Shown piece after piece: positions 18,804 to 60,156 of a stretch of DNA of 64,000 nucleotides. The stretch spans positions 62,001 through 126,000 of the forward strand of contig NZ_JANIAC010000004.1 in assembly GCF_024723255.1 (NCBI RefSeq), in the 5' to 3' direction. The first letter of the stretch is position 1, and every line of letters starts with the position of its first letter. The notes beneath the pieces were generated by a model. That model saw only the letters and a list, made by a program, of their open reading frames with translations. It was not told the origin of the DNA and searched no databases. Source of the stretch: Aestuariibaculum sp. M13. GTDB taxonomy: Bacteria; Bacteroidota; Bacteroidia; Flavobacteriales; Flavobacteriaceae. The translations under genes and the position numbers were made by a program.

Positions 18804-20192
18804 TTAGTTGTCTGTGCTGAAAACTTCAAAAGATTTAATTTCCGGATTTCCTTTAGATTCGGTAATTTTTAAACGCACTTGTGAAACATTTAGCTCATCA
18901 AACTTATGGATAAATTTATGCCCAATACAAGAGCCTTCAAAAATAGTTTTCCAGCCTTCCTTAGTTTTTCCTTCTAAAACAAAAGCTCTCACACGTTCTC
19001 CAATGGCAATGTTTTCGGCCAAGACAATTTGATTAATGTTTTGAGTTTTTGAAAGCTTTATAGTTAGTTTAGATTTGTTCCCAGATGTTGTTCTAGCCGG
19101 GTTTGAAAACTTCCGATTGATTTCATCTCCAAATTCCTTCAGGCGTTTTACATCAGGCTCAGGAATTAGTCCGTTCGGGTCTGGGGTAATGCCTAAAATA
19201 AGCGAACTATTATGACCAACCGAGTTGTAGTACATGGCCATTAGGTGTTCTAAAGGGAAAATGTGTTCTTCGTCATTAGGTTCCCAAAACCATTCATGAC
19301 GACCGTTATAACCTCTAAGCGGGGCATCGCTCATGGCTGGCATGTAATATTTACCATCAGGATCTCCTGTCTTTAATAACTCGAAATTGTTTTTAAAAAT
19401 GACCTCTTGATTGGTAGAATGTGAGTAAGGAAATGGATAAGTGCCCCAACTAGGATAAGGTACTTTTCCAGATTCGCTGCCACCCCAACGAATATCTGCG
19501 CGTTGCGTGTTGTGATAAAAAATAATATTTTTTTGATGCTTTTCAGCAATAGGTAAAATGTCGGCTCCACCTTGTTCCGGACCATGAGCCCCGCCGTCGA
19601 ACCAAACCATAGCCAAATCGCCATAACGAGACATAAGCTCGTCTACCATACCTTCACACATACGGTTGTAATGCTTTTGGCGATTCTCGGCAAATGTGCC
19701 AGTTCCTTGTACTTTAAAATCGTGAATACCATAGAACGAATTCCAACGTATGCCAATGTAAATACCTGGCTTTACGCCATATTTTCTACAAGATTCAACA
19801 AAATCTTTTACAATATCGCCTTTTCCATCTTTCCATTTTACAGCTTTTAAACAGTATGGATTAACATCACTTTGGTATAAGGCAAAACCAGTTTCGTGCG
19901 TCGCGGTAAGAATCGCTAAATTACAACCAGCATCTTTAACCGATTTAATCCACTGGTCGGTATCAAGTTGTTTAGGGTTAAAAATATTGATGACTTCAAC
20001 CGGTGTAATTCTGTTGATTTTTTGGTTGTACTGTTTGTTGTCGAATACATGAAGGTCGTAGTGAAAAACAGCAACCAATTCGGCATCTTGCCAATCTAAT
20101 TGAGCTTGCGTTGGAATTGGAACTTCGGTTTGTGCTACCAGCACTTGTATTGAAAGAAATAAAAGAAATAAAGTGGATTTTATAAGGTTCAT
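18804..20192 (-). CDS. Alpha-L-fucosidase family protein (GH29), exported
   Basis: The 462-residue protein has a signal peptide (ending VLVAQ, about residue 20) and a GH29 barrel. Visible patterns are LAILTATHETGFALYQSD, YGVKPGIYIGIRWNSF and the nucleophile motif MVWFDGGAHG with Asp near residue 199. The C-terminal about 80 residues resemble a small beta-sandwich of the galactose-binding type (ERVRAFVLEG, VSQVRLKITES). The HETGF in place of the usual HHDGF, together with the overall pattern, suggests a divergent GH29 subfamily that may act on a different alpha-fucoside or alpha-galactoside-like substrate. It is the last gene of a minus-strand group with a second GH29 and a TonB receptor. Confidence 0.82.
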   Translation of the reverse strand: MNLIKSTLFLLFLSIQVLVAQTEVPIPTQAQLDWQDAELVAVFHYDLHVFDNKQYNQKINRITPVEVINIFNPKQLDTDQWIKSVKDAGCNLAILTATHETGFALYQSDVNPYCLKAVKWKDGKGDIVKDFVESCRKYGVKPGIYIGIRWNSFYGIHDFKVQGTGTFAENRQKHYNRMCEGMVDELMSRYGDLAMVWFDGGAHGPEQGGADILPIAEKHQKNIIFYHNTQRADIRWGGSESGKVPYPSWGTYPFPYSHSTNQEVIFKNNFELLKTGDPDGKYYMPAMSDAPLRGYNGRHEWFWEPNDEEHIFPLEHLMAMYYNSVGHNSSLILGITPDPNGLIPEPDVKRLKEFGDEINRKFSNPARTTSGNKSKLTIKLSKTQNINQIVLAENIAIGERVRAFVLEGKTKEGWKTIFEGSCIGHKFIHKFDELNVSQVRLKITESKGNPEIKSFEVFSTDN

Positions 20193-20262
20193 GTAATATA
20201 TTTTAAAAAATTAAGGTTGGTTTTGTTTTAATACGTTTCAATTTTAGATATCCCAGAGTTTT

Positions 20263-22167
20263 TTATTCATTAATTTCAGAACCGTAAACTTGTAATTTTT
20301 TTAAATGAAGGGCCGCAGTAGAGGAGGACTCTACAGAAACTTTTATATATCGCCCTTTAATTCCAGGTAATTCTATTCCGGCATTAAACTGGGTTACCGG
20401 AACTTCCCAATGATAAAAGCTTCCTTTTTTATCTTCAATTTTGTTCCAGTTTTCACCATCTATTGAAGTAAAGACACTAAAATTAAGATCGTTGGTTAAA
20501 TAATGTTTCTGATTAAAAATATCGATACCTTTAACTTGGTAATTTTTTTCTAAATCTATAATTGCAAATGCTTCTTTTTCTTCTTTACTATGAAAAGCAA
20601 AAGGGCTGTTAAATAGTTTGTTTGAAAATAATAAATTATGGAAACTAGAATCGTCTTCCTGAGATTGTGAACTTATTGTGAAGGTCGCATTATCCGAAAT
20701 AATATTGCCGTATAAAGGGTCTGAAAATAAGGAGTTAGACAAAGGGTCTCCAGACATTTCAGTAATTGTCTTTTTACATGTAAGCTCGATAATAATGGTT
20801 TCTTCGTTTTTGTTTGCTTTTGAAAGATTAAAAACAATTTCCGATTTGTTTTGAGTGAAACTTATTTCTCCACCTGTAAGTAATTGGGCTTTTTTTATTT
20901 TTGAAGGTATTGCAGGCAGCTTTAATGAATTAAGCGATTTGTCGGTAATGTGTAAATAAATGGTTTTGTCTTCGTACGTGCTACCTCCCCATTTTTGAGG
21001 ATACCAAGGGCCTCCTTTAGTATTGTAAATAGATTGTCCGTAGGTTTTCATCCATTGGCCAACTTCTTCCAATCGTTCTACCTCGACATCATCAAATGCA
21101 CCATTCCATTGTGAACCCCAACTTAAAAGCATATTACCATTTCCGCAGGCAGTAGACGTTATCATTTTAATAATTTTTTCTTTTGATTTTGGTGGGGTTC
21201 CAGAATAAGACCAGGAATGTGTTAGTGTAATGCAACTTTCCCAAGGGCGCTCCTGGTACATGCCAATTTTTTGTTCAGGCGTATCAAAATCTCCAGGAAT
21301 TGAAGCACGATTGTTAATTATAATTCCTGGTTGTAATTTACGTATCATTCTGGTTAATTCTTCAGAATCCCACATATCGGCCGTAAACATACCACCCCAC
21401 CAAGAAGCATCAAACCAAAAAATATCCACTTTGCCGTAATTCGTGCATAATTCTTTAACTACATTGAATTGATATGCTTTGTATTTATCGTGTGTAGGTC
21501 CTGGAAGGACTTTTTCAACACCTGGCTTAGCGTTAAAATAGGGTGCTTCTTTTTGACGGACAACCAACGTTGTGTCTATAGGTGCGTAATCTGGATGATA
21601 CCAATCACGTTGCGAATAATAGATTCCAAATTTCATGTTTGCTTCATGACAGGCATCGGCGATTTCTTTTAAATAATCTCTCCCAAAAGGCGTATTTGTA
21701 ACCTTGAAATCTGAATATTTTGTATCCCACATATGAAAACCATCATGATGTTTAGCGATGGTTACAATGTATTTCATGCCTGCATCTTTGGCAATCTTAA
21801 CCCACTTTTTGGCGTCGAAATTTTCAAATTTAAAGTGTTCAGGATAGGTAACCCAAACGGAGTCTGCAATAGGACCATGACCGCCATCAGGCGCTTTTCT
21901 TGTGTAGCACATACCCCAACTAAGGTCTTTTTTAATATACGTTGAAAGGCCAAAATGGATAAACATGCCGTATCGAGCATCATTGAACCATTGCATGTCT
22001 TCCTTCGTAGCAAAGTTGCTGGAGTCCCATTCTGCTTCGCTAAATAATTGTATATGGTTCCATCTTGCATTTTTATCCGTTTTATTACCACGTACAGACC
22101 ATTGTGCGTTGATTGAATGGAAAGAACAAATTAAAAGGAAAATAAGGGCGGTAAGTTGTTTTGTCAT
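20263..22167 (-). CDS. Alpha-L-fucosidase (GH29) with C-terminal discoidin-like domain, exported
   Basis: The 634-residue enzyme has a signal peptide ending at SINAQ. GH29 patterns are strong: WFNDARYGMFIHFGLSTY, VTIAKHHDGFHMWDT, FGIYYSQRDWYHPDY, and the nucleophile in FWFDASWWGG (Asp near residue 253). After the barrel comes a beta-rich linker and, from about residue 500, an F5/8 type C-like sugar-binding domain (DLEKNYQVKGIDIFNQ, GIKGRYIKVSVES). It should release alpha-linked L-fucose from oligosaccharides in the periplasm. The spacing to the neighbouring fucosidase is 70 nt, consistent with one operon starting at the TonB receptor. Confidence 0.9.
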   Translation of the reverse strand: MTKQLTALIFLLICSFHSINAQWSVRGNKTDKNARWNHIQLFSEAEWDSSNFATKEDMQWFNDARYGMFIHFGLSTYIKKDLSWGMCYTRKAPDGGHGPIADSVWVTYPEHFKFENFDAKKWVKIAKDAGMKYIVTIAKHHDGFHMWDTKYSDFKVTNTPFGRDYLKEIADACHEANMKFGIYYSQRDWYHPDYAPIDTTLVVRQKEAPYFNAKPGVEKVLPGPTHDKYKAYQFNVVKELCTNYGKVDIFWFDASWWGGMFTADMWDSEELTRMIRKLQPGIIINNRASIPGDFDTPEQKIGMYQERPWESCITLTHSWSYSGTPPKSKEKIIKMITSTACGNGNMLLSWGSQWNGAFDDVEVERLEEVGQWMKTYGQSIYNTKGGPWYPQKWGGSTYEDKTIYLHITDKSLNSLKLPAIPSKIKKAQLLTGGEISFTQNKSEIVFNLSKANKNEETIIIELTCKKTITEMSGDPLSNSLFSDPLYGNIISDNATFTISSQSQEDDSSFHNLLFSNKLFNSPFAFHSKEEKEAFAIIDLEKNYQVKGIDIFNQKHYLTNDLNFSVFTSIDGENWNKIEDKKGSFYHWEVPVTQFNAGIELPGIKGRYIKVSVESSSTAALHLKKLQVYGSEINE

Positions 22168-22285: not shown

Positions 22286-25090
22286 TTAAATTTTGTAGTT
22301 TAATTTTAAAAATGTTCCTCGAGGTAATACAGGTACTACAATAAAGCTGACATCGGGATTGCCTTCAATATAATCTTTTGTAATTCCGTTGGCACTGGCT
22401 CCAAAACTATTTGCTCCGTAGAAATTGGCTAAACCTTCTGAATTAAAAAGATTGGTAATAAGTAAACTGGTTGAAATATTGTTTGATATTTTATATGTCA
22501 TTCCAAAATCAAAAATACTATAAGCAGGTAGTTGAAAAGCATTAGCCACGTTAGCTTCTCTTTCTCCCATAAATTGCCATTTAACAAAACTGGACATGTT
22601 TTTAAATTCATATTCCGTACTTAGATTAAACATGACCGTTGGATTATATGGAAGTGTATTTCCTGAGTAATTGGTTATACTATCGTCTTCAGTATCGGCA
22701 GTTCCGTTAGCATTGTAAATAGTCCATGTTTTTGTTTTAGGGTTTTGAAGTATTCCATTGAATAGGAATTTCAGGTTCTTTAAGGGCGAGTAAATACTTT
22801 CCCATTCCAAACCTATTGTTTTTGAACTGTTAAACTGCATAGGGGTGTAAAAAACGGCATTGGTAGTTTCATCAAATTCAAAGTTAGATGCTCCAATTTT
22901 ATTAAGCTGACTGTAAAACAAAGTTCCTGCAATTGAAAAATTGGTTAAACTTGATTTTAACCCCAGTTCTAATTGATTTATTTTCTGAATTTCGCCTTTT
23001 CTGTTTATTGGAGTGTTGGAGAAATTGTTGAAATAGTAATTCAGTTCCGGAGCCTTATTGCCCTTTGAGAACCTTAAAAAGAGAGCAGTTTGTTTAGATG
23101 TTTTATAATTAACCCCTCCAGAATACGAAATGTAATTGTAGGTGAAATTGAATAGGTCTTTTTCTCCGGTTGGTGTTAATACGCCATTGTCATAATCGGT
23201 ATAAGGGTTGCTATCTAAACCTCCATTTTGGGTAAATGGAGCATAGCGGTCGTTACTGCCTTTATGTGTAATGCTTTCAAATCTGACACCGAGATCTAAA
23301 TTCAGATTGTTTGTTAATAGCCAGTTGTCATTGGCGAAGGATGCCAGTTGAGTAATATGAGCACGGCTATTGCCAAAAAATAAACCGCCGTAATTGCTTA
23401 CTCCGTTTTGGTCTGATAAATACGTTATGGGTTCGTTCGGATTTTCTAGAGTTACAGATAACATTCTAGGATTGTTTTCATAAGTGACAAAAGCAAAGCT
23501 TCCTTGCGTAAATACAGAGGTGTTTGATAATCCTGTAGCAAATCCGAAGTTTAAAATATGATTCTCGAATTGCTTTTTTAAAATAAGTTGCTGAATTAAT
23601 TCATCGGCTTCATTGTCTTTTAGCCATGTTGAAGTGCCCATAATGGCATCATTCGGTAATCGACCATCAGTTAAATATTGGAATGATTCTCCTGCTAAAA
23701 TACCGCTATTATCAATTCTGGCTAATTCAATTCCAGACTGGGTGTCTTTAAAAACAATTTGACCTATTGGGAATTGTGCACCTGTAATAAAGTAAGCTAA
23801 CGGATTATTTAAAGAAACAAAGGCATTACTAATTGAAGTTTGCCAGTTGGCGCTTTTAGTTGAAACTTTTATGTTGTTTTTTATGGTCCAGTTATTACCT
23901 AATTTTTGAGATAAATCTATTCCAAAAGCATAGTCCTGTGCATGAATACCTTTAGCAGGATTAAAATGATCTAAAGACAGCAAGTTTCTGCCATCAGGAA
24001 TCGAGGCGTTAAATTCAGGCATCATTAAGGCAGTCGATTTAAAACTTTGTCCGAAAGCGGGCTGCGGATTATTCCAATTTACAGCTGAAACTCCAGTATA
24101 GCGATTCGTGTTATCGTTTAATAGTTTTCCGTAGAATTTAAAATACCCACGACTGTTTTCCTTTAAAACATTGAATTTAAATTGTCCGCCTTTACTGAAC
24201 GTGAAATTTGTATTTCTGGCACCATCATCATGTCTATAATGCCCGCCGGCGTTTATATACCAGTTGTTACCTAGAGGACTGCCAATAGAAGCATCTGCTC
24301 TGTAAAACATATTGTTGTTCCCTTGTGTTCCTGTCTGTAGTTGAATCTCACCACCTAGTACATTTCTTTTTTTGTTAGAGATGAAATTAAAAATTCCGCC
24401 AGGAGCATTCATGGAAGTTATTGAAGCATTTCCTCCTCTAATGGCTTCAAGTTTGGTGGTTGTTATGTCGTTTCTGTAAAATAAATCAGGGGCGTAATAT
24501 GAATGCTGAACAAGGCTAATAGGTAGTCCGTCTTCCTGAAGAGCTACGTAATACCAACCCATGTCGTCTTCTGCAGATGCCGAAATACCTCTGGTGTAAA
24601 CACGGGTAAAAACTTCACCGGCCGAAGCATCAGTAAAGATTCCAGGGATATTTTGAATTATTTGAGCTGTTCCACGAACAGGTATTTTAGATAGATCATT
24701 TTCATTAAGATTACTTATAGAGTTGCTAGACTCTAATTTGTTTCTGGAGTCAAAATTTCCTGTAACAACAATGGTTTCAAGATTTAATAAATCATCCTCT
24801 AAAGTGTAAAATAATTTTAAAGTTTGATTTTGAATTTTTATGGAGTCTGTTAATGTTTTATATCCTAAATGACTTATTGAAATTTGAAAGTTTCCGTTTG
24901 GAATATTTTTTAAATGATATGAATTTTCGGAATAAGAAATTGTAAAATAATTAGAAGAATTTAAACTTATGCTGGCATCTTTAAGGACGTCGTCTTTATT
25001 GTTTTTTACAGTTATAAGAATTTGATTTTGAGCCGATAAATTAAATGAATAAAAAATAGCAATTAGAAAGAGTATAAAGTTGCTTTTCAC
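22286..25090 (-). CDS. TonB-dependent receptor, no SusD partner
   Basis: The 934-residue outer-membrane transporter has a signal peptide (ending FNLSAQ). A carboxypeptidase-regulatory-like N-terminal domain at about 22-100 is followed by the TonB-box-like LETIVVTGNF, a plug domain (IIQNIPGIF, VYTRGISAS, LEAIRGGNASITSMNAPGGIFNFIS) and a 22-strand-type barrel ending in the C-terminal aromatic-containing LKLNYKI. The start codon is GTG (25088-25090); no ATG fits the signal peptide better. It heads the minus-strand fucosidase group, so import of a fucose-containing glycan or glycoside is inferred. The classical SusD lipoprotein is absent next to it. Confidence 0.9.
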   Translation of the reverse strand: MKSNFILFLIAIFYSFNLSAQNQILITVKNNKDDVLKDASISLNSSNYFTISYSENSYHLKNIPNGNFQISISHLGYKTLTDSIKIQNQTLKLFYTLEDDLLNLETIVVTGNFDSRNKLESSNSISNLNENDLSKIPVRGTAQIIQNIPGIFTDASAGEVFTRVYTRGISASAEDDMGWYYVALQEDGLPISLVQHSYYAPDLFYRNDITTTKLEAIRGGNASITSMNAPGGIFNFISNKKRNVLGGEIQLQTGTQGNNNMFYRADASIGSPLGNNWYINAGGHYRHDDGARNTNFTFSKGGQFKFNVLKENSRGYFKFYGKLLNDNTNRYTGVSAVNWNNPQPAFGQSFKSTALMMPEFNASIPDGRNLLSLDHFNPAKGIHAQDYAFGIDLSQKLGNNWTIKNNIKVSTKSANWQTSISNAFVSLNNPLAYFITGAQFPIGQIVFKDTQSGIELARIDNSGILAGESFQYLTDGRLPNDAIMGTSTWLKDNEADELIQQLILKKQFENHILNFGFATGLSNTSVFTQGSFAFVTYENNPRMLSVTLENPNEPITYLSDQNGVSNYGGLFFGNSRAHITQLASFANDNWLLTNNLNLDLGVRFESITHKGSNDRYAPFTQNGGLDSNPYTDYDNGVLTPTGEKDLFNFTYNYISYSGGVNYKTSKQTALFLRFSKGNKAPELNYYFNNFSNTPINRKGEIQKINQLELGLKSSLTNFSIAGTLFYSQLNKIGASNFEFDETTNAVFYTPMQFNSSKTIGLEWESIYSPLKNLKFLFNGILQNPKTKTWTIYNANGTADTEDDSITNYSGNTLPYNPTVMFNLSTEYEFKNMSSFVKWQFMGEREANVANAFQLPAYSIFDFGMTYKISNNISTSLLITNLFNSEGLANFYGANSFGASANGITKDYIEGNPDVSFIVVPVLPRGTFLKLNYKI

Positions 25091-25414
25091 GTAGTATTTA
25101 ATTAAATTTTTTGGAGTTAGTTGTTTCTAAACAAATATATAAATAAAGCAATATGTGAGATTGATGTATTTATTTTTTGCGTTTACTCAAGATTTTAGTG
25201 AAGTAGCTAATAGGATTCTTTGTTGAATTCTTAATGAAATTGCTTTATGTTGAGTTATTTATGTGCAAAATAAAGTAAAATTGAATATATTATTAATTTT
25301 TGTGAAAATTACATGCTTTTTAAGAAATGTAATAATTTGGTTTAAAAATTTTATGTAATATTGCATCATCTAGTTAACGAAAGGGGCTAACGCCGACGAT
25401 TTAGAGTTACTATT
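25091..25414. other. AT-rich divergent region with promoters for the receptor and the arginine leader
   Basis: This is the first half of a 623-nt gap without long genes. On the minus strand, TATATTTG (complement of 25132-25139) is an exact -7 box for the TonB receptor, without a convincing -33 partner. On the plus strand, TTTG (25336-25339) and TAATATTG (25356-25363) form an imperfect promoter with a 16-nt spacer for the arginine leader. Otherwise I see only AT-rich sequence. Confidence 0.45.
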
Positions 25415-25512
25415 ATGAAAACGACAAATTATATTTTTACATTTTTAAATGTTCAGTCTTTGAACATAAGTTTTAACGCATTTATTCCTGCACGTCGTTT
25501 TCGCCGCCCCTT
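25381..25512 (+). promoter_or_regulatory. Putative arginine attenuator RNA (long-range stem enclosing a leader ORF)
   Basis: AAGGGGC (25381-25387) can pair with GCCCCTT (25506-25512), and CGACG (25394-25398) with CGTCG (25493-25497). This forms a two-segment helix that encloses nearly all of the leader ORF. The 3' arm consists of its Arg codons. A ribosome stalled on those codons would prevent the helix. A second hairpin (GAGGTAGG 25534-25541 with CCTGCTTC 25547-25554, two wobbles) follows. No strong classical terminator is seen; the only candidate is a weak stem at 25594-25610 with T5 at 25620-25624. Confidence 0.5.
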
Positions 25513-25522
25513 GAGGGTTTAA
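25415..25522 (+). CDS. Candidate arginine-rich leader peptide of the arg-pro operon
   Basis: The 35-codon ORF begins MKTTNYIFTF and ends PARRFRRPLRV. Five of its last nine codons encode arginine (CGT CGT at 27-28, CGC CGC at 30-31, AGG at 34), while the first 26 codons contain none. It lies 192 nt upstream of an eleven-gene arginine and proline biosynthesis operon on the same strand. Clustered cognate codons just before the stop are the signature of leader peptides used in ribosome-mediated attenuation. That the peptide is translated and regulatory is inference. No homologue is known to me. Confidence 0.55.
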   Translation: MKTTNYIFTFLNVQSLNISFNAFIPARRFRRPLRV

Positions 25523-25713
25523 TAATTTATTTCGAGGTAGGTGTGCCCTGCTTCTTCAACAAAAAAGAATCCATTTAACTTTACCTAAATTTAACTCACT
25601 TGCAGTGTGTTATGTTGTGTTTTTAGGTTTATTCTAGTAATTTTATTCGGATTCTAAAAACAAGCAACAAATATTTATTATCATAACATTTTATTTATAA
25701 CCTAGATTGGTTT
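25523..25713 (+). other. Long untranslated leader between arginine leader ORF and operon
   Basis: This 191-nt stretch has no ORF worth calling. It contains the hairpin at 25534-25554 and the weak stem plus T5 at 25594-25624. No purine-rich ribosome-binding site precedes the first gene, as is common in this phylum. Confidence 0.4.
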
Positions 25714-26340
25714 ATGAAAAACATTGAGGTATTAATTGCCAATAAATCACATGCTAAATACGCAGAAATTATCTGCGAAACCATTGCTGAATCAGCCGCT
25801 GTAAGAGGGACAGGTATTGCCAGACGTACTCCAGAATATATCACAAAAAAATTGGAAAATGGAAATGCGGTTATAGCCTTGGAAGGCGAAAAGTTTGCAG
25901 GGTTTTGTTATATAGAACTTTGGGGACATGGTAAGTTTGTGGCCAACTCAGGATTAATTGTACATCCTGATTACAGAAATGTGGGTTTGGCAAAAAAGAT
26001 AAAACACAAAATTTTTAAGCATTCAAGAACTAAATTTCCTGATGCTAAAGTTTTTAGTATAACAACCGGTTTAGCCGTTATGAAAATGAACAGTGATTTA
26101 GGTTATAAACCTGTGCCATTTTCTGAGTTAACCGACGATTCAACATTTTGGGATGGTTGTCAGACTTGTAGAAATTACGATGTTTTAACAAGAACCAACC
26201 GAAAAATGTGTTTGTGTACAGGGATGCTTTACGACCCTAAATCAAAATTAGAAAAACAGAAAAAAGTAAAAGAAAAGGTTTTCAACAGATTAAAACATAT
26301 CAAGGAAACCATGTTCTTAAAAAAAAAAGACCAAAAGTAA
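25714..26340 (+). CDS. GNAT-family acyltransferase, probable N-acylglutamate synthase
   Basis: The 208-residue GNAT protein has the acyl-CoA pyrophosphate-binding region at NSGLIVHPDYRNVGLAKKIK (about 78-97; RxxGL/A form). First place in the arginine operon, with no argA or argJ elsewhere in the cluster, suggests it makes the N-acylglutamate that starts the pathway. A cysteine group, DGCQTCRNY and RKMCLCTG (Cys 149, 152, 166, 168), is spaced like a metal site and is unusual for a GNAT enzyme. The C-terminal 35 residues are very Lys-rich. Whether the donor is acetyl-CoA or succinyl-CoA is open; the transcarbamylase downstream points to succinyl. Confidence 0.75.
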   Translation: MKNIEVLIANKSHAKYAEIICETIAESAAVRGTGIARRTPEYITKKLENGNAVIALEGEKFAGFCYIELWGHGKFVANSGLIVHPDYRNVGLAKKIKHKIFKHSRTKFPDAKVFSITTGLAVMKMNSDLGYKPVPFSELTDDSTFWDGCQTCRNYDVLTRTNRKMCLCTGMLYDPKSKLEKQKKVKEKVFNRLKHIKETMFLKKKDQK

Positions 26341-26348
26341 TATAGCAG

Positions 26349-27527
26349 ATGAAAAAATTAGTAATTGCCTATAGTGGCGGGTTAGATACTTCGTATTGTG
26401 CAGTAAGCTTATCAAAAGAATTTGAAGTGCATGCTGTAAGTGTAAACACCGGTGGATTTACCAGAGCCGAGATTGATAGAATTGAAGCAAATGCCTATAA
26501 AATGGGTGTAACAACCTATAAAAATATAGATGCGGTAGCAACGTTTTATCAAAAAGTAGTAAAGTACTTAGTTTTTGGAAACGTATTAAAAAACAATACA
26601 TATCCGTTATCTGTAAGTGCAGAACGTATTATTCAGGCTATTGAGATTATTGAGTACGCAAAGAGTATTGATGCCGAGTATATTGCTCACGGTAGTACGG
26701 GTGCTGGTAACGATCAGGTGCGTTTCGATATGATTTTCCAAACTTTGGCACCAGATATTGAAATTATAACACCAATTAGAGATAAAAAATTAACAAGACA
26801 GGAAGAAATCGACTATTTAAAAGCTAATGGTATTGATATGCCATGGGAAAAAGCAAAATATTCGATTAACAAAGGACTTTGGGGAACCAGTGTTGGAGGA
26901 TCTGAAACTTTAACTTCTGAAAAACCACTACCAAGTGAAGCTTACCCATCTCAGTTAAAACATTCTGAAGAAGAAAAAGTGAAATTAACCTTCGAAAAAG
27001 GAGAGTTGGTAGCTGTTAATGGTATTGAAAACGATCCTGAAATCAATATTGAAACTTTAAATAATTTGGCATCGGCCTATGCCATTGGTAGAGATATTCA
27101 CGTGGGTGATACTATTGTTGGTATTAAAGGTCGTGTTGGTTTTGAAGCTGCTGCGGCATTAATCACTATTAAAGCGCACCACTTATTAGAAAAGCATACG
27201 CTTACTAAATGGCAGTTACAACACAAGGAATATATTGCAAGTTTCTACGGCATGCATTTACACGAAGGATTATACTTAGATCCGGTAATGCGCGATATGG
27301 AAGCCTTTTTACAAAGTAGTCAGGATAAAGTTAGCGGTGATGTAACAGTAACATTAAAACCTTATCACTTTACGTTAGATGGTATTTCATCAGAGCACGA
27401 TTTAATGAGTGCGAAGTTTGGTAGCTACGGCGAGGAGAATAAGGGCTGGACGGCAGATGAAGCTAAAGGATTTATTAAAATCTTTGGAAACCAGAACAAG
27501 ATTTATCAACAGGTAAATTCAAATTAA
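26349..27527 (+). CDS. argG: Argininosuccinate synthase
   Basis: The 392-residue cytoplasmic enzyme condenses citrulline and aspartate with ATP. The N-terminal PP-loop is AYSGGLDTSY (about 8-17). The family patterns IAHGSTGAGNDQVRFD, PIRDKKLTRQEEIDYLKANG and KYSINKGLWGTSVGG are present. The length is near the usual 395-400. It starts 8 nt after the GNAT gene, so the two are co-transcribed. A 130-nt gap with a degenerate dispersed repeat separates it from argC. Confidence 0.97.
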   Translation: MKKLVIAYSGGLDTSYCAVSLSKEFEVHAVSVNTGGFTRAEIDRIEANAYKMGVTTYKNIDAVATFYQKVVKYLVFGNVLKNNTYPLSVSAERIIQAIEIIEYAKSIDAEYIAHGSTGAGNDQVRFDMIFQTLAPDIEIITPIRDKKLTRQEEIDYLKANGIDMPWEKAKYSINKGLWGTSVGGSETLTSEKPLPSEAYPSQLKHSEEEKVKLTFEKGELVAVNGIENDPEINIETLNNLASAYAIGRDIHVGDTIVGIKGRVGFEAAAALITIKAHHLLEKHTLTKWQLQHKEYIASFYGMHLHEGLYLDPVMRDMEAFLQSSQDKVSGDVTVTLKPYHFTLDGISSEHDLMSAKFGSYGEENKGWTADEAKGFIKIFGNQNKIYQQVNSN

Positions 27528-27539
27528 AATAGAACTAAA

Positions 27540-27645
27540 GCTTGTCATCCTGAATTGTCACACTGAGCATTTGATATTAAGAGGAACAAACACTGTTTGT
27601 GGGAGTTTTAAAAGTGTTGTTTCAGTACCTAAATGATGAGTTTGA
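27540..27645 (+). repeat. Degenerate intergenic repeat between argG and argC
   Basis: TTGTCATCCTGAATTGTCA with CACTGAGCA, and later GTTGTTTCAGTACCTAAATGATGAG, resemble a decayed copy of the dispersed GTCATCCTGAA...TTTCAGGATCT type of palindromic intergenic element found in many Bacteroidota genomes. The assignment is from memory of such elements and is not tested. Confidence 0.35.
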
Positions 27646-27657
27646 AAAACAGTAAAA

Positions 27658-28641
27658 ATGAAAAATATTCAAGTTGGAATTATTGGTGGTGCAGGGTATA
27701 CTGCCGGTGAATTGGTTAGATTACTAATCAATCATTCACGAGCAGAACTTAACTTTGTATACAGTACATCTAACGCAGGAAATAAAATAAGTAAAATTCA
27801 TCAGGATCTTGTGGGTTCTCTGGATTTGGAGTTTACCGATACGGTAAATCCGGATGTTGACGTGTTGTTTTTGTGTCTTGGGCATGGTAATTCGGTTAAA
27901 TTCTTATCGGAAAACAGCTTTTCAGAAAACACAAAAATCATCGATTTAGGGAACGATTTCAGATTGGAAGCCGATAAAGTTTTTAATGGAAAAAACTTTG
28001 TTTACGGGCTGCCTGAATTACAATGGGAAGCTATTAAAACAGCTAATTATATTGCAAATCCAGGATGTTTTGCAACAGCTATTCAATTAGGTTTGTTGCC
28101 ACTGGCGAATGCAGGATTGTTAAATGAAGATGTTCACATTAATGCGGTAACCGGAGCTACCGGAGCAGGAACGTCCCTTTCGGCAACGACACACTACACG
28201 TGGCGCGATAATAACTTTTCATATTATAAACCCTTTACGCATCAGCATTTAGGAGAAATTAACCAATCGGTGAAACAATTACAAGGCGGGTTCGATTCAG
28301 ATATTTTATTTATGCCTAACCGAGGAAATTTTTCTAGGGGAATTTTCGCAACGCTTTACACCGATTTTTCGGGTTCGGTTGAAGAAGCTAAAGCGCTTTA
28401 TAAAGATTTTTATGAAGATGCTGAATTTACGTTTATTTCCGATGAAGAATTACATTTAAAACAGGTAGTTAATACCAATAAGTGTTTAATTCATTTACAT
28501 AAACATAACGGAAAATTGTTAATAACCAGTATTATAGATAATTTATTAAAAGGTGCTTCCGGGCAGGCTGTTCAGAATATGAATTTAATGTTCGGACTTG
28601 AAGAAACCACTGGGTTGAACTTGAAAGCGACTTATTTCTAA
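27658..28641 (+). CDS. argC: N-acyl-gamma-glutamyl-phosphate reductase
   Basis: The 327-residue NADPH-dependent reductase has the nucleotide-binding motif GIIGGAGYTAGELVRLL at about 7-23 and the catalytic Cys in ANPGCFATAIQL (near residue 139). The TGATGAGTSLSATTHYTWRDNNF and HQHLGEI patterns are typical of ArgC. It reduces N-acylglutamyl phosphate to the semialdehyde. The length matches the short ArgC type. It precedes proC by 20 nt. Confidence 0.96.
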   Translation: MKNIQVGIIGGAGYTAGELVRLLINHSRAELNFVYSTSNAGNKISKIHQDLVGSLDLEFTDTVNPDVDVLFLCLGHGNSVKFLSENSFSENTKIIDLGNDFRLEADKVFNGKNFVYGLPELQWEAIKTANYIANPGCFATAIQLGLLPLANAGLLNEDVHINAVTGATGAGTSLSATTHYTWRDNNFSYYKPFTHQHLGEINQSVKQLQGGFDSDILFMPNRGNFSRGIFATLYTDFSGSVEEAKALYKDFYEDAEFTFISDEELHLKQVVNTNKCLIHLHKHNGKLLITSIIDNLLKGASGQAVQNMNLMFGLEETTGLNLKATYF

Positions 28642-28661
28642 TAAAAAGAACTAACCAACAC

Positions 28662-29453
28662 ATGAAAATAGCAGTAATAGGAATCGGTAATTTAGGAAGT
28701 TCGATTGCAAACGGACTTATTAAAAACAATACTTTTTCATTGTTTTTAAGTAGCCGAAAAGCGAGTAGCTTAGAGGCGTTTAAAGGCGTTGAAAACGTTG
28801 AAACGACTAACAACAATGCGTGGGCTGTAGAGCAGTCAGATATTGTTATTTTCGCTTTACAACCCAAACATATAGATAAGGTTCTGGAAGAAGTTTCAGG
28901 GAAAATTACCGAAAACCATATTGTTATTTCTGTGGCTGCCGGAGTTGAAATTCCAAGGATTGAAAGTATTATTGGAAGCGATAAAAATATCATGCGTGTC
29001 ATGCCTAATACAGCGATTTCTATTGGTAAATCGATGACCTGTATTTCGGCAAACGATAAAGCTCAGGATAAAGTGAGTTTAGCACAGGATATTTTTAATC
29101 AATTAGGAACAACATTGGTGATTCCGGAAGAATTAATACAGGCAGCAACCGTTATCTGCGCCAGCGGAATTGCGTTTTGGATGCGCTTGGTTCGTGCTAC
29201 GACACAAGGGGCTATTCAGTTAGGTTTCGAAGCCCATGAAGCTCACCAATTAGCAACACAAACCTGTTATGGAGCAGCTAGTTTATTAATTGAAAGCGGG
29301 AAACACCCAGAACAGGAAATCGATCGTGTAACGACTCCAAGTGGTTGTACGATAGAAGGTTTGAATGCTATGGAACATAATGGATTAAGCTCTGCTTTAA
29401 TTCAGGGGCTTATAGCTTCATTCGAAAAAATTAATCAAATTAAAAAGAATTAA
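28662..29453 (+). CDS. proC: Pyrroline-5-carboxylate reductase
   Basis: The 263-residue enzyme catalyses the last step of proline synthesis. The NAD(P)-binding motif IGIGNLGSSIANGL lies at the N-terminus, followed by ALQPKHIDKVLEEV, MRVMPNTAISIGKSMT, and the C-terminal signature ASLLIESGKHPEQEIDRVTTPSGCTIEGLNAME. It sits inside the arginine cluster and is separated from argD by one base, so proline and arginine synthesis appear to share a transcript. Confidence 0.96.
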   Translation: MKIAVIGIGNLGSSIANGLIKNNTFSLFLSSRKASSLEAFKGVENVETTNNNAWAVEQSDIVIFALQPKHIDKVLEEVSGKITENHIVISVAAGVEIPRIESIIGSDKNIMRVMPNTAISIGKSMTCISANDKAQDKVSLAQDIFNQLGTTLVIPEELIQAATVICASGIAFWMRLVRATTQGAIQLGFEAHEAHQLATQTCYGAASLLIESGKHPEQEIDRVTTPSGCTIEGLNAMEHNGLSSALIQGLIASFEKINQIKKN

Positions 29454-29454
29454 A

Positions 29455-30594
29455 ATGCCATTATTTGACGTTTATCCACTATATAATGTAACGCCGGTAT
29501 CGGCGAAGGGTATTCACGTTTACGACGAAAATAATACCGAATATTTAGACCTTTACGGTGGTCATGCCGTAATTTCTATTGGTCATGCGCATCCTAATTA
29601 TGTGGCTGCGATTACCAATCAGGTGAATGCTTTAGGATTTTATTCAAATGCTATTCAAAATCCAATCCAGGTGGAATTGGCCGATAAGTTGGAAGCACTT
29701 TCTGGTTGTGAAGGTTACAACTTATTTTTGTGTAATTCAGGTGCCGAAGCGAATGAAAATGCATTAAAGTTAGCCTCTTTTAAAACAGGAAAGTCGCGTG
29801 TGGTGGCGTTTAAAAACGGATTCCACGGACGTACATCGGCGGCTGTTGCAGCAACCGATAATCCTAATATTATAGCACCAATAAATGCGCAGCAGGAAGT
29901 AACCATTCTGGAGTTAAACGATATTGAAGGTGTAAAAACCGAGTTAGAAAAAGGAGATGTTTGTGCGGTTATTGTTGAATTTATTCAAGGGGTTGGAGGT
30001 TTAGATCAGGCTACTGCCGAATTTTACGAGCAGGTTGATACGCTTTGTAAAGCGAATAACACCTATTTTATTGCCGATGAGGTACAGTCTGGTTACGGAC
30101 GTTCCGGGAAATTCTTCGCGTTTCAGCATTATAATGTGACTCCGGAAGTGATTTCAATTGCTAAAGGTATGGGTAACGGATTTCCTATTGGCGGGATTTT
30201 AATTCATCCGGATATTGAAGCAAAATACGGTATGTTAGGAACCACTTTTGGTGGTAATCATTTAGCATGTGCTGCTGGTTTAGCGGTTTTAAACACCATT
30301 GAAGAAGAACAATTAATCGACAATGTGAATGCGATGGCTGAGTATTTTATTTCAATTGCTAAAAATATTCCTCAGATAAAAAATATAAAAGGACGTGGCT
30401 TAATGCTTGGTTTAGAATTCGATTTTGAAGTGGGAGATTTAAGAAAGAAATTAATCTACGATCACCATATTTTTACTGGTGGGGCTTCAAATAAAAAGTT
30501 ACTTAGAATTTTACCACCATTAACAATTAAAAAGGAACATATCGATCAGTTTTTTAAGGCCTTAAAAAAGGAGCTAGAAGCGGTTGAAGTATAA
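29455..30594 (+). CDS. argD: N-acylornithine aminotransferase (class III)
   Basis: The 379-residue PLP enzyme converts N-acylglutamate semialdehyde to N-acylornithine. Class III features are LDLYGGHAVISIGHAHP, LCNSGAEANENALKLA, FKNGFHGRTSAAVA, IADEVQSGYGRSGKFFAFQHY and the PLP lysine in SIAKGMGNGFPIGG (near residue 238). It is shorter than E. coli ArgD (406) but full-length for this group. The acyl group may be acetyl or succinyl. Confidence 0.93.
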   Translation: MPLFDVYPLYNVTPVSAKGIHVYDENNTEYLDLYGGHAVISIGHAHPNYVAAITNQVNALGFYSNAIQNPIQVELADKLEALSGCEGYNLFLCNSGAEANENALKLASFKTGKSRVVAFKNGFHGRTSAAVAATDNPNIIAPINAQQEVTILELNDIEGVKTELEKGDVCAVIVEFIQGVGGLDQATAEFYEQVDTLCKANNTYFIADEVQSGYGRSGKFFAFQHYNVTPEVISIAKGMGNGFPIGGILIHPDIEAKYGMLGTTFGGNHLACAAGLAVLNTIEEEQLIDNVNAMAEYFISIAKNIPQIKNIKGRGLMLGLEFDFEVGDLRKKLIYDHHIFTGGASNKKLLRILPPLTIKKEHIDQFFKALKKELEAVEV

Positions 30595-30603
30595 AAATAA
30601 CGT

Positions 30604-30629
30604 GTCATTTCGCCGATAGGAGAAATCAC
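30604..30629 (+). repeat. Short dispersed-repeat-like hairpin between argD and proA
   Basis: GTCATTTCGCCGATAGGAGA plus AATCAC resembles the GTCATTTCGA...GAGAAATCT element scattered through many Bacteroidota genomes. The stem is ATTTC (30607-30611) with GAAAT (30622-30626). Confidence 0.4.
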
Positions 30630-30644
30630 ATAAGGATATAAAAA

Positions 30645-31841
30645 ATGAACACCTTATTATCAATTGAAACAAGAAACGCTGTATTGTTAAAAATGGCTGA
30701 ACTTCTTGAAAAAGAACGTACAGCGATTATAGAAATTAACAAAGCCGATCTTGAAGCTTACAATGGCGACGACATTTCGATGTACGATCGTTTAAAAGTG
30801 AACGATGCTAAAGTAGACGAAATGATTGCTTCGGTAACGCATTTAGCATCTCAGGCAGACCCCGTTGGTGTAGAGCGTTTTAGTTTCAAGCACGATAATG
30901 GCATGCAGGTGTATAATAAAACTGCATCCTTCGGAACGGTGCTGATTATTTACGAATCGCGCCCGGATGTTACCGTTGAAGCGGCTGGTATTGCCTTTAA
31001 ATCGGGGAACAAAATTTTACTTAAGGGCGGAAAGGAATCTACCGATTCTAATTTAAAAATTGTTGATTTGTGGCATGAGGCTTTAAAAGCAAATGGAGCG
31101 TCGACTGAATGGGTAGAATATTTACAATTCAACAGAACCGAAACACAGGCGTTTTTGGAAAATCCAACACAAAAAGTCGATTTAATTGTGCCACGTGGTG
31201 GCGAGCGTTTAATTGCTTTTGTGAAGGAACATGCGACTTGTCCGGTAATTATTAGCGGACGTGGAAATAACTTTGTGTATGTGCATAAAGAAGCCGATTT
31301 GGATATTGCTTTAAAAGTGATTATCAATGCTAAAACAGCTAAAATTTCGGCGTGTAATGCACTTGATAAAGTGTTAATTGATGCTAATCTTCCGAATAAG
31401 AAAAGCTTTATAAATACATTAATTTCAGAATTAAAGAATTTTGATGTTCAGATTTTAGGTGATGAAAACATAGCGAAATATGAAGGTGTTGAAGCTATAG
31501 AATCTGACGATATCTGGTATCAGGAGTTTTTAGATTTTAAAATCGCTATTGCTGAAATCGGGTCAACTCAGGTGGCTATTGCCATGATCAACCAATATTC
31601 TGGTGGGCATTCTTCTTCAATTATTACAACTAATGAGGATGAAGCGAAAGTATTTATGGAAAATGTAGATACTGCAGCGGTGTACCACAACGCTTCAACG
31701 CGTTTTACCGATGGTGGTCAGTTAGGACTTGGAGGAGAATTAGCGATTAGTACCGATAAATTACATCAACGTGGTCCGATAGGTTTACAGCATTTAGTAA
31801 CGAATAAATGGTATGTTCACGGTAACGGACAAATAAGATAG
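30645..31841 (+). CDS. proA: Glutamate-5-semialdehyde dehydrogenase (gamma-glutamyl phosphate reductase)
   Basis: The 398-residue aldehyde dehydrogenase-fold enzyme has the ProA patterns IYESRPDVTVEAAGIAFKSG, LLKGGKES, LIVPRGGERLIAFV and ISACNALDKVLID, where the Cys (near residue 236) is the catalytic nucleophile. The C-terminal AVYHNASTRFTDGGQLGLGGE is diagnostic. It reduces glutamyl 5-phosphate to the semialdehyde, feeding proC. Two bases separate it from proB, so the two ProA/ProB partners are tightly coupled. Confidence 0.96.
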   Translation: MNTLLSIETRNAVLLKMAELLEKERTAIIEINKADLEAYNGDDISMYDRLKVNDAKVDEMIASVTHLASQADPVGVERFSFKHDNGMQVYNKTASFGTVLIIYESRPDVTVEAAGIAFKSGNKILLKGGKESTDSNLKIVDLWHEALKANGASTEWVEYLQFNRTETQAFLENPTQKVDLIVPRGGERLIAFVKEHATCPVIISGRGNNFVYVHKEADLDIALKVIINAKTAKISACNALDKVLIDANLPNKKSFINTLISELKNFDVQILGDENIAKYEGVEAIESDDIWYQEFLDFKIAIAEIGSTQVAIAMINQYSGGHSSSIITTNEDEAKVFMENVDTAAVYHNASTRFTDGGQLGLGGELAISTDKLHQRGPIGLQHLVTNKWYVHGNGQIR

Positions 31842-31843
31842 GC

Positions 31844-32608
31844 ATGCAGAAAAAGAAACGCATATTACTTAAGGTAGGTTCTAATACATTAACCAAAGAA
31901 ACCGATAATATTTCCAGAGGAAAAATCGAAGACTTGGCAAGTCAGATAGCAGAGTTGAAGGATACCTGCGAATTTGTTATTGTAAGTTCGGGAGCCATTG
32001 CCGTGGCTAAACAGTTTGTGAAACTGGAAAGTAAGCAAAAGGATGTTTTTGTAAAACAGGCTTTGGCATCTATCGGTCAGCCGCACTTAATAAGAATATA
32101 TCAGGAGATTTTCAGAGAATACGGGTTGTTAACATCACAGTGTTTGTTATCGTATTCCGATTTCGAAAAAAAGGAAAGTCGTACCAATATTGTTAATACC
32201 ATTAATGTGTTGGTGAACAATAATTATATTCCCATTATTAATGAAAATGATACGGTTGCAACCGATGAAATTAAATTTGGCGATAATGATAAACTGGGTG
32301 CTTTAACAGCATCGCTTTTAGAAGCCGATTTATTTATTATAGCAACCAATACCAATGGTATTTACACCAAGGAATCTATGGAAAACGGTACGCCACAAAC
32401 CATAGAGTTAGTTGAAGATTTTGAAGCTTTACAAAGTGAAGTTGTTAACTCAAAATCATCACATGGAAGTGGAGGTATGCAATCAAAAATAGAAGCTGCC
32501 GCCGTAGCCAAAAAAGCAAATATTGAGACTTGGATTGTTAACGGACTGGAAGATCGTTTTATGCTGAATGCTTTCGAAAACAAAGTGCCGTTTACCAAGA
32601 TTAAATAA
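31844..32608 (+). CDS. proB: Glutamate 5-kinase, short form without PUA domain
   Basis: The 254-residue amino-acid kinase has KVGSNTLT at the N-terminus, VSSGAIAVA, the glutamate/proline-site region NTINVLVNNNYIPIINENDTVATDEIKFGDNDKL, and SHGSGGMQSKIEAA. It phosphorylates glutamate in the first step of proline synthesis. E. coli ProB has 367 residues because of a C-terminal PUA domain. Here the protein ends after the kinase fold, so feedback behaviour and oligomer state may differ. Confidence 0.95.
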   Translation: MQKKKRILLKVGSNTLTKETDNISRGKIEDLASQIAELKDTCEFVIVSSGAIAVAKQFVKLESKQKDVFVKQALASIGQPHLIRIYQEIFREYGLLTSQCLLSYSDFEKKESRTNIVNTINVLVNNNYIPIINENDTVATDEIKFGDNDKLGALTASLLEADLFIIATNTNGIYTKESMENGTPQTIELVEDFEALQSEVVNSKSSHGSGGMQSKIEAAAVAKKANIETWIVNGLEDRFMLNAFENKVPFTKIK

Positions 32609-32628
32609 AAAACTAAAGAACTATACAG

Positions 32629-33567
32629 ATGAAATATTACACCTCCATACATGATATCGATGACATCAATTCCTGGATTGAGGAAGCTAAAGAGTTAAAA
32701 CAAGATCCGTTAAAACATCTTGAATTGGGACGCAATAAAACCCTTGGGTTATTGTTCTTTAATTCAAGTTTGCGTACGCGGTTAAGCACTCAAAAAGCAG
32801 CCTTAAACTTAGGGATGAATCCTATTGTAATGAATGTTTCCGGAGATGCCTGGGGTATTGAGTTTGGAGATGGAACTGTTATGAATGGAAATACAGCCGA
32901 GCATATAAAGGAAGCTGCTGCGGTGGTTTCTCAATATTGCGATGTTATTGCCGTTAGAGCGTTTCCAACATTAACCGATAAGACTAAAGATGAAAGTGAA
33001 GAAGTTCTAAATGCTTTTAAAAAGTATGCCTCTGTACCTTTAGTTAATATGGAAAGTGCTACGGGCCACCCGCTACAAGCGTTAACTGATGCGATAACTA
33101 TTTCAGAATATAAGAAAAAGGACAGACCAAAAGTGGTGTTAAGCTGGGCGCCTCATGTTAAGGCGTTGCCTCATGCGGTAGCGAATAGTTTTACTCAGGC
33201 CATGCAGAAAATGGATGTCGATTTTGTAATTACCAATCCTGAGGGGTATAATTTAAGTCCGGACATTGTTGGCGATACACCTGTAATTCATAATCAGGAA
33301 GAAGCCTTAAAAGATGCTGATTTTGTTTACGTGAAAAACTGGAGTTGTTATGAAGACTACGGAAAAGTAATTAATACAGACCCGAATTGGATGATTACTA
33401 AAGATAAAATTGGTGATGCTAAATTTATGCACTGTTTACCGGTAAGGCGCAATGTTATTGTTGAAGATGCTGTTTTAGATAGCGATAGTTCAATCGTTAT
33501 TCAACAGGCAAATAACAGAACGTATGCGGCGCAATTAGTATTAAAGAAAATATTGGAAAATGCCTAA
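32629..33567 (+). CDS. argF': N-succinylornithine (or N-acetylornithine) carbamoyltransferase
   Basis: The 312-residue transcarbamylase is of the AOTCase/SOTCase group, not ordinary ornithine transcarbamylase. It shows FFNSSLRTRLSTQKAA (carbamoyl-phosphate loop), GDAWGIEFG, VVLSWAPHVKALPHAVANSF, KNWSCYEDYG and FMHCLPVRRNVIV, as in Bacteroides SOTCase. The residue that distinguishes the subtypes (Glu92 in Xanthomonas AOTCase, Pro90 in B. fragilis SOTCase) is Ala90 here (NGNTAEH). Substitution of Glu92 by Ala is reported to turn AOTCase into SOTCase, so succinylornithine is the favoured substrate. Its stop overlaps argB by 8 nt. Confidence 0.9.
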   Translation: MKYYTSIHDIDDINSWIEEAKELKQDPLKHLELGRNKTLGLLFFNSSLRTRLSTQKAALNLGMNPIVMNVSGDAWGIEFGDGTVMNGNTAEHIKEAAAVVSQYCDVIAVRAFPTLTDKTKDESEEVLNAFKKYASVPLVNMESATGHPLQALTDAITISEYKKKDRPKVVLSWAPHVKALPHAVANSFTQAMQKMDVDFVITNPEGYNLSPDIVGDTPVIHNQEEALKDADFVYVKNWSCYEDYGKVINTDPNWMITKDKIGDAKFMHCLPVRRNVIVEDAVLDSDSSIVIQQANNRTYAAQLVLKKILENA

Positions 33568-34342
33568 AGAAAAATTATCCATAGTAAAAATAGGAGGAAA
33601 CATAATTGAAGATGCTTCAGCTTTAGCTGACTTTTTAAAATTGTTTTCAGGATTAGAAGGAAAGAAAATTTTAGTGCATGGAGGCGGAAAACGCGCGACA
33701 CATATCGCTTCAAAACTGGGTATAGAATCGCAAATGGTTAACGGTCGTCGTATTACGGATGCAGAAACTTTAGAAGTCATTACCATGGTTTATGGTGGCT
33801 TGGTCAACAAAAATATTGTTGCCCAGCTACAGGCTTTAAGTATTGATGCTATTGGATTAACCGGAGCCGATGCCAACAGTATTACTTCAGATAAACGCCC
33901 CGTAAAAGAGGTCGATTTCGGATTTGTGGGCGATGTAAAATCGGTGGCTTATCATTCAGTAAATAAGTTAATTGAAGCTAATTTTACACCTGTTTTCTGC
34001 GCCATTACCCACGATGGTAAGGGGCAGTTGTTAAACACTAATGCCGATACGATTACCTCGCAAATTGCTATCGGAATGAGTGAACTTTACGAAACTTCTA
34101 TTTATTACTGTTTTGAATTGAACGGTGTTTTAAAAGATATCAACGATAAGAATTCTGTTATTAAACACATAGACACCAAGTTATATGGTGAATTATTAGA
34201 GCAAGGTATTATTGCCGATGGTATGCTGCCAAAATTAGAAAACTGTTTCGATGCACTTAATAATGGCGTTGCAACTATAAATATGGGAAATACCTCGATG
34301 TTGACACAGGAAAATGATAATTTTACAGCCATAACATTATAA
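33560..34342 (+). CDS. argB: N-acylglutamate kinase
   Basis: The 260-residue amino-acid kinase has KIGGNIIED, the substrate loop LVHGGGKRATHIASKLGI, MVNGRRITDAETLEVITMVYGGLVNKNIVA, and GMLPKLENCFDALNNGV. It phosphorylates N-acetyl- or N-succinylglutamate, giving the substrate of ArgC. The N-terminal arginine-binding helix of arginine-sensitive kinases is lacking, which suggests the type not inhibited by arginine and leaves control to expression (inference). It overlaps argF' and is one base from the next gene. Confidence 0.94.
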   Translation: MPKEKLSIVKIGGNIIEDASALADFLKLFSGLEGKKILVHGGGKRATHIASKLGIESQMVNGRRITDAETLEVITMVYGGLVNKNIVAQLQALSIDAIGLTGADANSITSDKRPVKEVDFGFVGDVKSVAYHSVNKLIEANFTPVFCAITHDGKGQLLNTNADTITSQIAIGMSELYETSIYYCFELNGVLKDINDKNSVIKHIDTKLYGELLEQGIIADGMLPKLENCFDALNNGVATINMGNTSMLTQENDNFTAITL

Positions 34343-34343
34343 A

Positions 34344-35411: not shown

Positions 35412-35446
35412 ACAATTCAACGAATAAACAAATAAACAGAGATAGA

Positions 35447-42019: not shown

Positions 42020-42127
42020 TTTTAAGTGTAAATTGAAAATTTTTGAAAAATTTATATAAAAAAATTAGGTTTTTTACTTTTTCTAATTGAATATTTGCAT
42101 TCACAAAGTTCAAACACTTATTGAAAT

Positions 42128-42248: not shown

Positions 42249-42267
42249 GAAGCGTATTACCGTTGGT

Positions 42268-59953: not shown

Positions 59954-59983
59954 CACCCCTAGTTCATAAACTTAATAATTAAT

Positions 59984-60107: not shown

Positions 60108-60156
60108 GGAAAGTCTTTTTACTTTTCTTGATGACATACAGATATAAATTATCAAA

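Follow-up and report, generated by a model that had tools for sequence, protein, structure and literature searches.

A putative ribosome-mediated arginine sensor in the leader of an arginine and proline biosynthesis operon of Flavobacteriaceae

Results

An arginine-rich leader ORF precedes an arg/pro operon

We analyzed a 64,000-nucleotide stretch of Aestuariibaculum sp. M13 (contig NZ_JANIAC010000004.1; hereafter the window), in which a short leader open reading frame (ORF) lies directly before eleven co-directional genes of arginine and proline synthesis. The leader ORF (ORF2, MKTTNYIFTFLNVQSLNISFNAFIPARRFRRPLRV) spans positions 25415–25522 (+) and has 35 codons, from ATG to TAA. Codons 1–26 contain no Arg, and five Arg codons (27, 28, 30, 31, and 34) fall within the last nine. 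The Arg control zone reads CGT CGT (TTT) CGC CGC (25493–25507, +). An earlier note on this DNA had pointed out both the Arg-rich end and the position before eleven arg/pro genes; sequence and translation bear out the former, gene order and profile matches the latter. Among the 596 mechanically defined ORFs of 20–60 amino acids on both strands of the window, only the leader ORF has at least five Arg within its last nine codons, and three ORFs have at least four. Additionally, 2000 mononucleotide shuffles of the intergenic region yielded no plus-strand ORF with such an Arg cluster, and the Arg share of codons in 18 window genes is 2.8%. The Arg cluster of the leader ORF is beyond chance.

The operon (25714–36721, +) consists, by profile matches, of genes for a GNAT protein, argG, argC, proC, argD, proA, proB, argF', argB, argE, and argH, and its gene types include an N-acetylornithine carbamoyltransferase (argF') and an ArgE/DapE-type deacylase (argE). 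Ten of the genes were scanned against NCBIfam; several matches (for example argG, argD, and the deacylase) fall under the curated cut-offs, yet have very low E-values. The eleventh gene matches Pfam Lyase_1 and takes its name argH from its position, while the first is presumably argA-like, its profile evidence covering the GNAT fold only. The predicted promoter comprises TTTG (25336–25339, +), a 16-nt spacer, and TAATATTG (25356–25363, +). According to passages of PMC9723704, TAnnTTTG is the flavobacterial sigma-A -7 box. This box is absent from 27528–27657, the sole wide gap inside the operon, and occurs within the operon genes at chance level. Because of the gene order, and with no such box in the wide internal gap, arginine and proline synthesis would be under the joint control of one leader.

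No convincing further copies of the leader were found in its own genome. A search with the leader peptide gave matches at E ≤1 in 65 of 199 family genomes. Among the matches inspected (L002–L031, own copy aside), only L003, L004, and L014 precede an arg operon; the others look like chance and were set aside as homologues. The same ORF is thus found upstream of the same acetyltransferase gene in one genome of the same genus and in two other genera.

An invariant 5' RNA domain is shared by two classes of close relatives

Upstream of the leader ORF, an RNA domain (25371–25412, +) was delimited by its invariance across loci and by a model, R1. It is predicted to fold into an outer stem UAG-U-UAAC/GUUA-CUA, an internal loop GAAAGG/GACGAUUUAGA, and an inner stem GGC/GCC closed by a 4-nt loop. 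A scan of GTDB genomes for GCCGACGATTTAGAGTTA recovered 97 stretches, whose titles name Flavobacteriaceae genera, Flavobacteriaceae, or Bacteroidia. These comprise 48 loci of class A, which resemble the window and come from Aestuariibaculum, Aquimarina, and one metagenome-assembled genome, 48 of class B (Algibacter, Polaribacter, Tamlana, Aquimarina, and others; mostly a GTG start and a ..RFPxxRP end), and one odd locus, L097. Seven of the 97 slices stop short of the next gene. In the remaining slices, judged by eye, the first ORF encodes one of two acetyltransferase-like proteins, except for L097, which has proC in this place. One of the class B acetyltransferase-like proteins scores 20.3 bits in Pfam against a cut-off of 20.7. 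The working sets of 50 class A and 49 class B loci contain the scan loci plus the window, L043, and L042, with L097 in neither class. Near-identical rows were dropped for the structure and codon counts (45 of 50 and 42 of 49 kept) and for the synonymous test (44 and 36).

The domain is nearly unchanged over 100 loci, and its flanks diverge. Specifically, AACGAAAGGGGC is exact in 99 of 100 loci and the 4-nt loop in 98, whereas the invariance of GCCGACGATTTAGAGTTA follows from the selection of loci by it. Nearly all sequences are compatible with its stems, which scarcely covary, so the proposed structure rests on the invariance and on the outer-stem difference between classes A and B. The P1b tetraloop reads as UNCG in 35 of 50 class A loci (26.4 expected after column shuffling) and 5 of 49 class B loci (1.3 expected), which lends weak support. 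R1 matched 19 of 397 family genomes at 67–74 bits, with the other matches listed at 34.6 bits or less; the weak matches L160–L164 were rejected, each lying inside or at the end of an unrelated ORF. Rfam gave nothing at gathering score in the leader, and its four matches (E 1.2–9.2) are far below the gathering scores. One frame of the domain, which in class A is that of the leader ORF, reads NERGxxRRFRV in 98 of 100 loci. We regard it as unlikely to be coding: 57 of 100 loci have no in-frame ATG, GTG, or TTG within 18 nt upstream (42 have TTG, one GTG), two loci whose loops differ in length drop out of the frame, and synonymous changes in AACGAAAGGGGC are absent from 99 of 100.

The promoter boxes are also kept, as TAnnnTTG in 43, TAnnTTTG in 5, and neither in 2 of the 50 class A loci, and as TAnnTTTG in 43 and neither in 6 of the 49 class B loci. 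The ORF has 32–40 codons in class A (35 in 40 of 50) and 30 codons in 41 of 49 class B loci. Arg codons concentrate at the end in both classes, with 188 of 500 last-ten codons against 20 of 1252 other codons in class A, and 98 of 490 against 20 of 982 in class B. For class A, the synonymous fraction is 0.347 in the ORF frame and 0.222 and 0.195 in the other frames. A Phe beside Arg is kept in 43 of 45 class A sequences and in 33 of 39 alignable class B sequences (of 42), and the class B Pro codon after Phe varies at its third base (CCT 26, CCA 7, and CCG 2 of 39).

Predicted hairpins and helices of the leader

The region 25370–25560 folds with a z-score of -1.95, and 7 of 200 shuffles fold equally well. 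In class A, helix H pairs the start-codon region with the Arg codons; its 5' arm UGAAAACGAC (25416–25425, +) pairs with 25494–25503 (+), within the control zone. Two of its pairs change from G-C to A-U in a compensatory manner, in 5 of 45 sequences each. Hairpin P2 (UGUUCA-gucuu-UGAACA, 25450–25466, +), taken from the minimum free energy (MFE) fold, lies within the ORF. At one of its pairs, 3 of 45 class A sequences have CG in place of UA; the corresponding class B hairpin shows covariation at several pairs.

Hairpin X (CCC...GGG, 25506–25518, +), placed by pairing in the alignment, covers the last Arg and Pro codons. Its columns are paired in 96% of cells in an 84-sequence alignment. The segment GCCCCUU (25506–25512) can alternatively pair with AAGGGGC of the 5' domain (25381–25387). 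X is only weakly formed in the window, with 0.09 expected pairs, and the MFE fold favors the pairing of GCCCC with GGGGC of the 5' domain, so that the latter and the 3' arm of X compete for GCCCC. Hairpin T, GAGGUAGG-UGUGC-CCUGCUUC (25534–25554, +), was recognized by its conserved core and arm changes, with both-side changes in seven of its eight pairs. The class A loci were selected independently of its core AGGTGNGYCC, and 47 of 50 have it. A pairing of the T loop with the Arg codons was considered and dropped, since the registers differ (few sequences, by eye).

An X-T module lies upstream of argG across the family

The gene argG is present in 138 of 199 family genomes, and its upstream regions were read in 89 of these besides the own genome (29 + 60). 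Where the 5' domain is missing, many arg operons still possess a leader ORF whose end is rich in Arg, frequently ..FPRRP, and a second, upstream ORF ending in RxRRRF or similar is also frequent. Their common part consists of X (CGY-CGC-CCN-stop-GGG) and T ((G)GAAC..AGGUGNGYCC..GUUC(C)). A regular expression for X-T matched 92 of the 107 loci given to it, including 75 of the 89 argG loci L178–L266, and 6 of the 15 loci with no match have the class B domain. As the expression fixes the T core, the invariance of the core in the alignment is partly due to selection. It also fixes one Arg codon, and leaves the openness of the frame free. The ORF frame is open for at least 20 codons in all 90 distinct X-T segments (16 and 18 in the other frames), and at least three Arg are found in the last ten codons of 83 segments (2 and 0 in the other frames); the remaining seven have one or two Arg each.

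We built a covariance model from 84 of the 90 segments, leaving out L235 and five class A segments. The covariation score of X-T is 0.208, above all 500 shuffles. Shifting the alignment by one column scores nearly as high because the stems of T allow several registers: a shift of -1 still scores 0.185, and a shift of +1 gives more both-side-changed cells (57 vs 42). At a threshold of at least 28 bits for a strong match, the model gave 91 strong matches in 149 family genomes, never more than one in a genome and each located 567–896 nt upstream of argG on the same strand; the genomes of this distance count are taken to be the same 149. Strong matches occur in 91 of the 102 argG genomes and in none of the 47 other family genomes, which lack argG. 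For 33 of the argG genomes no locus had been fetched by the time of model building, and 28 of them have a strong match. Weaker matches (25.6 bits or less) are scattered. In a class-wide scan of 295 genomes, some of them from the same family, matches of at least 28 bits were confined to the family and the rest reached 26.2 bits at most; among the matches listed, only two genomes belong to another family of the same order.

Of the 74 X-T loci that lack the 5' domain, 44 have a first Arg-rich ORF (shuffled rate 0.7%); none of the 50 class A loci has one. Six of the 49 class B loci also scored, all six being the 5' domain read as a peptide. Judged by sequence, the 5' half of the leader is modular, carrying a second Arg-rich ORF in many relatives and, in Aestuariibaculum, Aquimarina, and others, the invariant RNA domain instead. 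Distant relatives retain little beyond Arg and a hairpin (LRRRP, RRTSVRV, and RRRRRP). By eye, in a few genera (L235, L236, L239, and L240) the CCC/GGG hairpin seems to be swapped for another, such as GCAC/GUGC, and the ORF ends in RRTSVRV or similar. The earlier note had proposed looking for the small ORF upstream of related arg operons, and there it is indeed found, with a variable N-terminus and the Arg-rich C-terminus kept. These data support ribosome-mediated leader control that would be widespread in the family.

Control codons are biased to CGY, and ArgR was not found in sampled genomes

Within the control zone, taken for the 90 X-T segments as the eight codons before the terminal Arg-Pro core, 157 of 171 Arg codons are CGY. 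Further upstream in these frames, 34 of 40 Arg codons are AGR, and in the long ORFs of the same loci AGA accounts for 1050 of 2301. The CGY bias may partly stem from RNA pairing. The ArgR domain PF02863 was found in none of 120 family genomes, own genome included, and in 8 of 14 control genomes, a Bacteroides among them.

The odd locus L097 (L097:4911–5300) comes from the uncultured Aquimarina isolate 694, in which the 5' domain, with one base changed in AACGAAAGGGGC and a score of 55.5 bits, precedes a lone proC. Helix H, P2, X, and T are recognizable there by eye. The terminal codons encode Pro-Gly-Phe-Phe-Phe-Pro (..VPGFFFPSGV), and the last ten contain no Arg. The argG of this isolate lies elsewhere and is preceded by an X-T module and by Arg-rich ORFs (L175). 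This single locus suggests that Arg codons are retained only where arginine genes are controlled, and a change of specificity at L097 is possible.

Other features of the window

Two S-adenosylmethionine riboswitches (RF00162) lie at 42126–42250 and 59982–60109, with 73 and 76 bits; the genes that follow look methionine-related by eye. At 18804–22167 (-), two adjoining alpha-L-fucosidase-like genes stand beside a TonB-type receptor gene (22286–25090), the names again being assigned by eye.

Discussion

The conserved ORF, its Arg-rich end, and the X-T module before argG lead us to consider the leader a ribosome-mediated arginine sensor for the arg/pro operon, with a probability of roughly 0.7. 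The Arg codons overlap the 5' arm of X, followed by a spacer that is U-rich (58% U, mean 12 nt) and by T. A shortage of charged tRNA-Arg for CGY codons would stall the ribosome on the Arg codons, where it would cover the 5' arm of X, and the operon would be expressed. When arginine is plentiful, the ribosome would finish and leave, allowing X to form or, alternatively in Aestuariibaculum, the 5' domain to capture GCCCC, and expression would stop early. X might act through premature termination at the U-rich spacer, which makes early termination after X conceivable, or just as well through Rho or mRNA turnover; as no classical terminator was found, we infer the step that follows ribosome stalling. 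The biased control codons fit the theory of selective charging, which, according to passages of PMC1183508, explains codon bias in Escherichia coli leaders and was verified for Arg tRNAs.

Several observations weigh against this explanation. No intrinsic terminator (GC hairpin plus U-run) was found at any site in 25100–25800, and the 14 nt after T contain 25% U in the 90 segments and look A-rich beyond. In the folding, masking the Arg codons with a simulated ribosome abolishes X by construction and leaves T at a median of 0.76, the same as without the ribosome. T is thus not the switch, and with no U-run after it, it was rejected as a terminator. X shows no covariation in the 84-sequence alignment, and 11 of 102 argG genomes have no strong X-T match; three of these carry a class B domain (G017, G051, and G121), three were fetched and show no match to the regular expression (G110, G134, and G140), and five were not fetched. 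The remaining points concern class B. The synonymous fraction there gives no coding signal (0.339 against 0.375 and 0.275), so class B alone would not prove translation; 35 of 49 leaders have two Arg in the last ten codons; the T core occurs in 0 of 49 loci, which have a different, A/U-rich hairpin; and in L115 and L121 the ORF is truncated and the 5' domain kept. Furthermore, the conserved Phe/Pro beside Arg and the richness in CGC could in part be due to RNA pairing or to an effect of the peptide. The reading of the leader as an attenuation leader, put forward in the earlier note, is therefore supported in the broad sense of ribosome-mediated leader control, given the conserved ORF, the Arg tail, X-T before argG, and 0 of 120 genomes with ArgR. 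Trp-type transcription attenuation is not supported, given that no intrinsic terminator was found.

A peptide effect would be central if the leader encoded an arrest peptide. TnaC and SpeFL are nascent peptides that stall the ribosome upon binding a metabolite, and a nascent R-F-x-R-R-P or F-P-R-R-P might likewise bind arginine or another metabolite in the tunnel, in which case control would depend on the peptide sequence and not on tRNA charging. The conserved Phe next to Arg in both classes, the third-base variation of the class B Pro codon, and the FPRRP kept in many loci without the 5' domain agree with such a sensor. Distant relatives, however, keep mainly Arg and the hairpin and not the Phe, the X arm supplies the codon for the last Pro, and a peptide-only model leaves the CGY codon switch unexplained. 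On balance, we regard an arrest peptide as unlikely.

T may have a role of its own. In outline, its stem, bulged A, and GG-loop-CC resemble a phage coat-protein operator, and the T hairpins could be a candidate protein site. A more elaborate scheme would be an ArgR-free, two-stage leader, in which a CGY-isoacceptor sensor works on X-T, some factor binds T (bulged A, GG-UGNGY-CC), and stage one is either an Arg ORF or an aptamer-like 5' RNA, the latter a candidate arginine-pathway riboswitch replacing a leader peptide. We offer this scheme as a speculation with a small chance of being correct.

The 5' RNA domain could also be the real sensor, as a riboswitch or a protein-binding site, with the ORF secondary in this clade. 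Its near invariance amid diverging flanks, its location at the predicted 5' end of the transcript, its presence in place of the first Arg-rich ORF of other genera, and its persistence where the ORF is shortened (L115 and L121) all point in this direction. Against it, strong R1 matches are limited to 19 of 397 genomes while X-T and the Arg-rich ORF are common, the domain also precedes the lone proC of L097, and its stems scarcely covary; we therefore think it improbable that this domain is the principal sensor. Finally, the structured leader might set RNA stability or a fixed level of expression, with the ORF merely clearing or protecting the RNA and no amino acid being sensed; the insensitivity of T to ribosome position in the folding, the absence of a terminator, and a strict hairpin conservation that an RNA-binding protein or a processing site would likewise explain are in line with this, but it explains neither the Arg-specific enrichment nor the CGY switch nor the loss of Arg at the lone proC, and is very improbable.

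Flavobacteriaceae are abundant in the sea, and no ArgR was found in the 120 sampled genomes. For the control of arginine synthesis in this family, the X-T module offers a precise, testable answer and a covariance model for annotation, and the contrast of CGY in the control zone with AGR elsewhere is a natural case for testing selective tRNA charging. Additionally, the roles of a peptide ORF and of a structured RNA seem to be exchanged, and, if the proposed sensor is correct, the supply of arginine and proline would be set together by one leader. Novel aspects seem to be the X-T module, the codon switch, the interchangeable 5' half, and the lack of ArgR in the sampled genomes; among the top-ranked matches in the openly licensed literature, no arginine leader peptide in Bacteroidetes was found.

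The proposed sensor shares features with several known systems. The pyrBI (pyrL) attenuator of E. coli senses UTP via polymerase pausing; there, too, a leader ribosome blocks an RNA hairpin directly, and the difference lies in the sensing of UTP instead of cognate codons. Upstream ORF motifs are described in passages of PMC8632094, the main text of which does not contain the word 'Flavobacter'. In the same family, leader-peptide attenuation is reported in general terms for Flavobacterium psychrophilum, upstream of amino-acid biosynthesis operons, in passages of PMC9723704 that name no arginine operon and no X-T module. The orf34/speF leader of Salmonella also has a leader ORF with consecutive Arg codons; without arginine, the ribosome is reported to pause at these codons and to alter the RNA structure, with Rho and RNase G involved (PMC6386406). 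It differs in governing ornithine decarboxylase and not arginine synthesis. Parallels in layout are also found in the trp, his, and thr attenuators of enterobacteria (passages of PMC1183508), which likewise place a short ORF with clustered cognate codons and synonymous bias before a biosynthetic operon. Compared with these, the leader described here has no intrinsic terminator that we could find, its amino acid is arginine, and it carries a second conserved hairpin, T. Furthermore, a ribosome stalled on its control codons would sit on the 5' arm of X, which extends over the stop codon, and would thereby block this hairpin directly.
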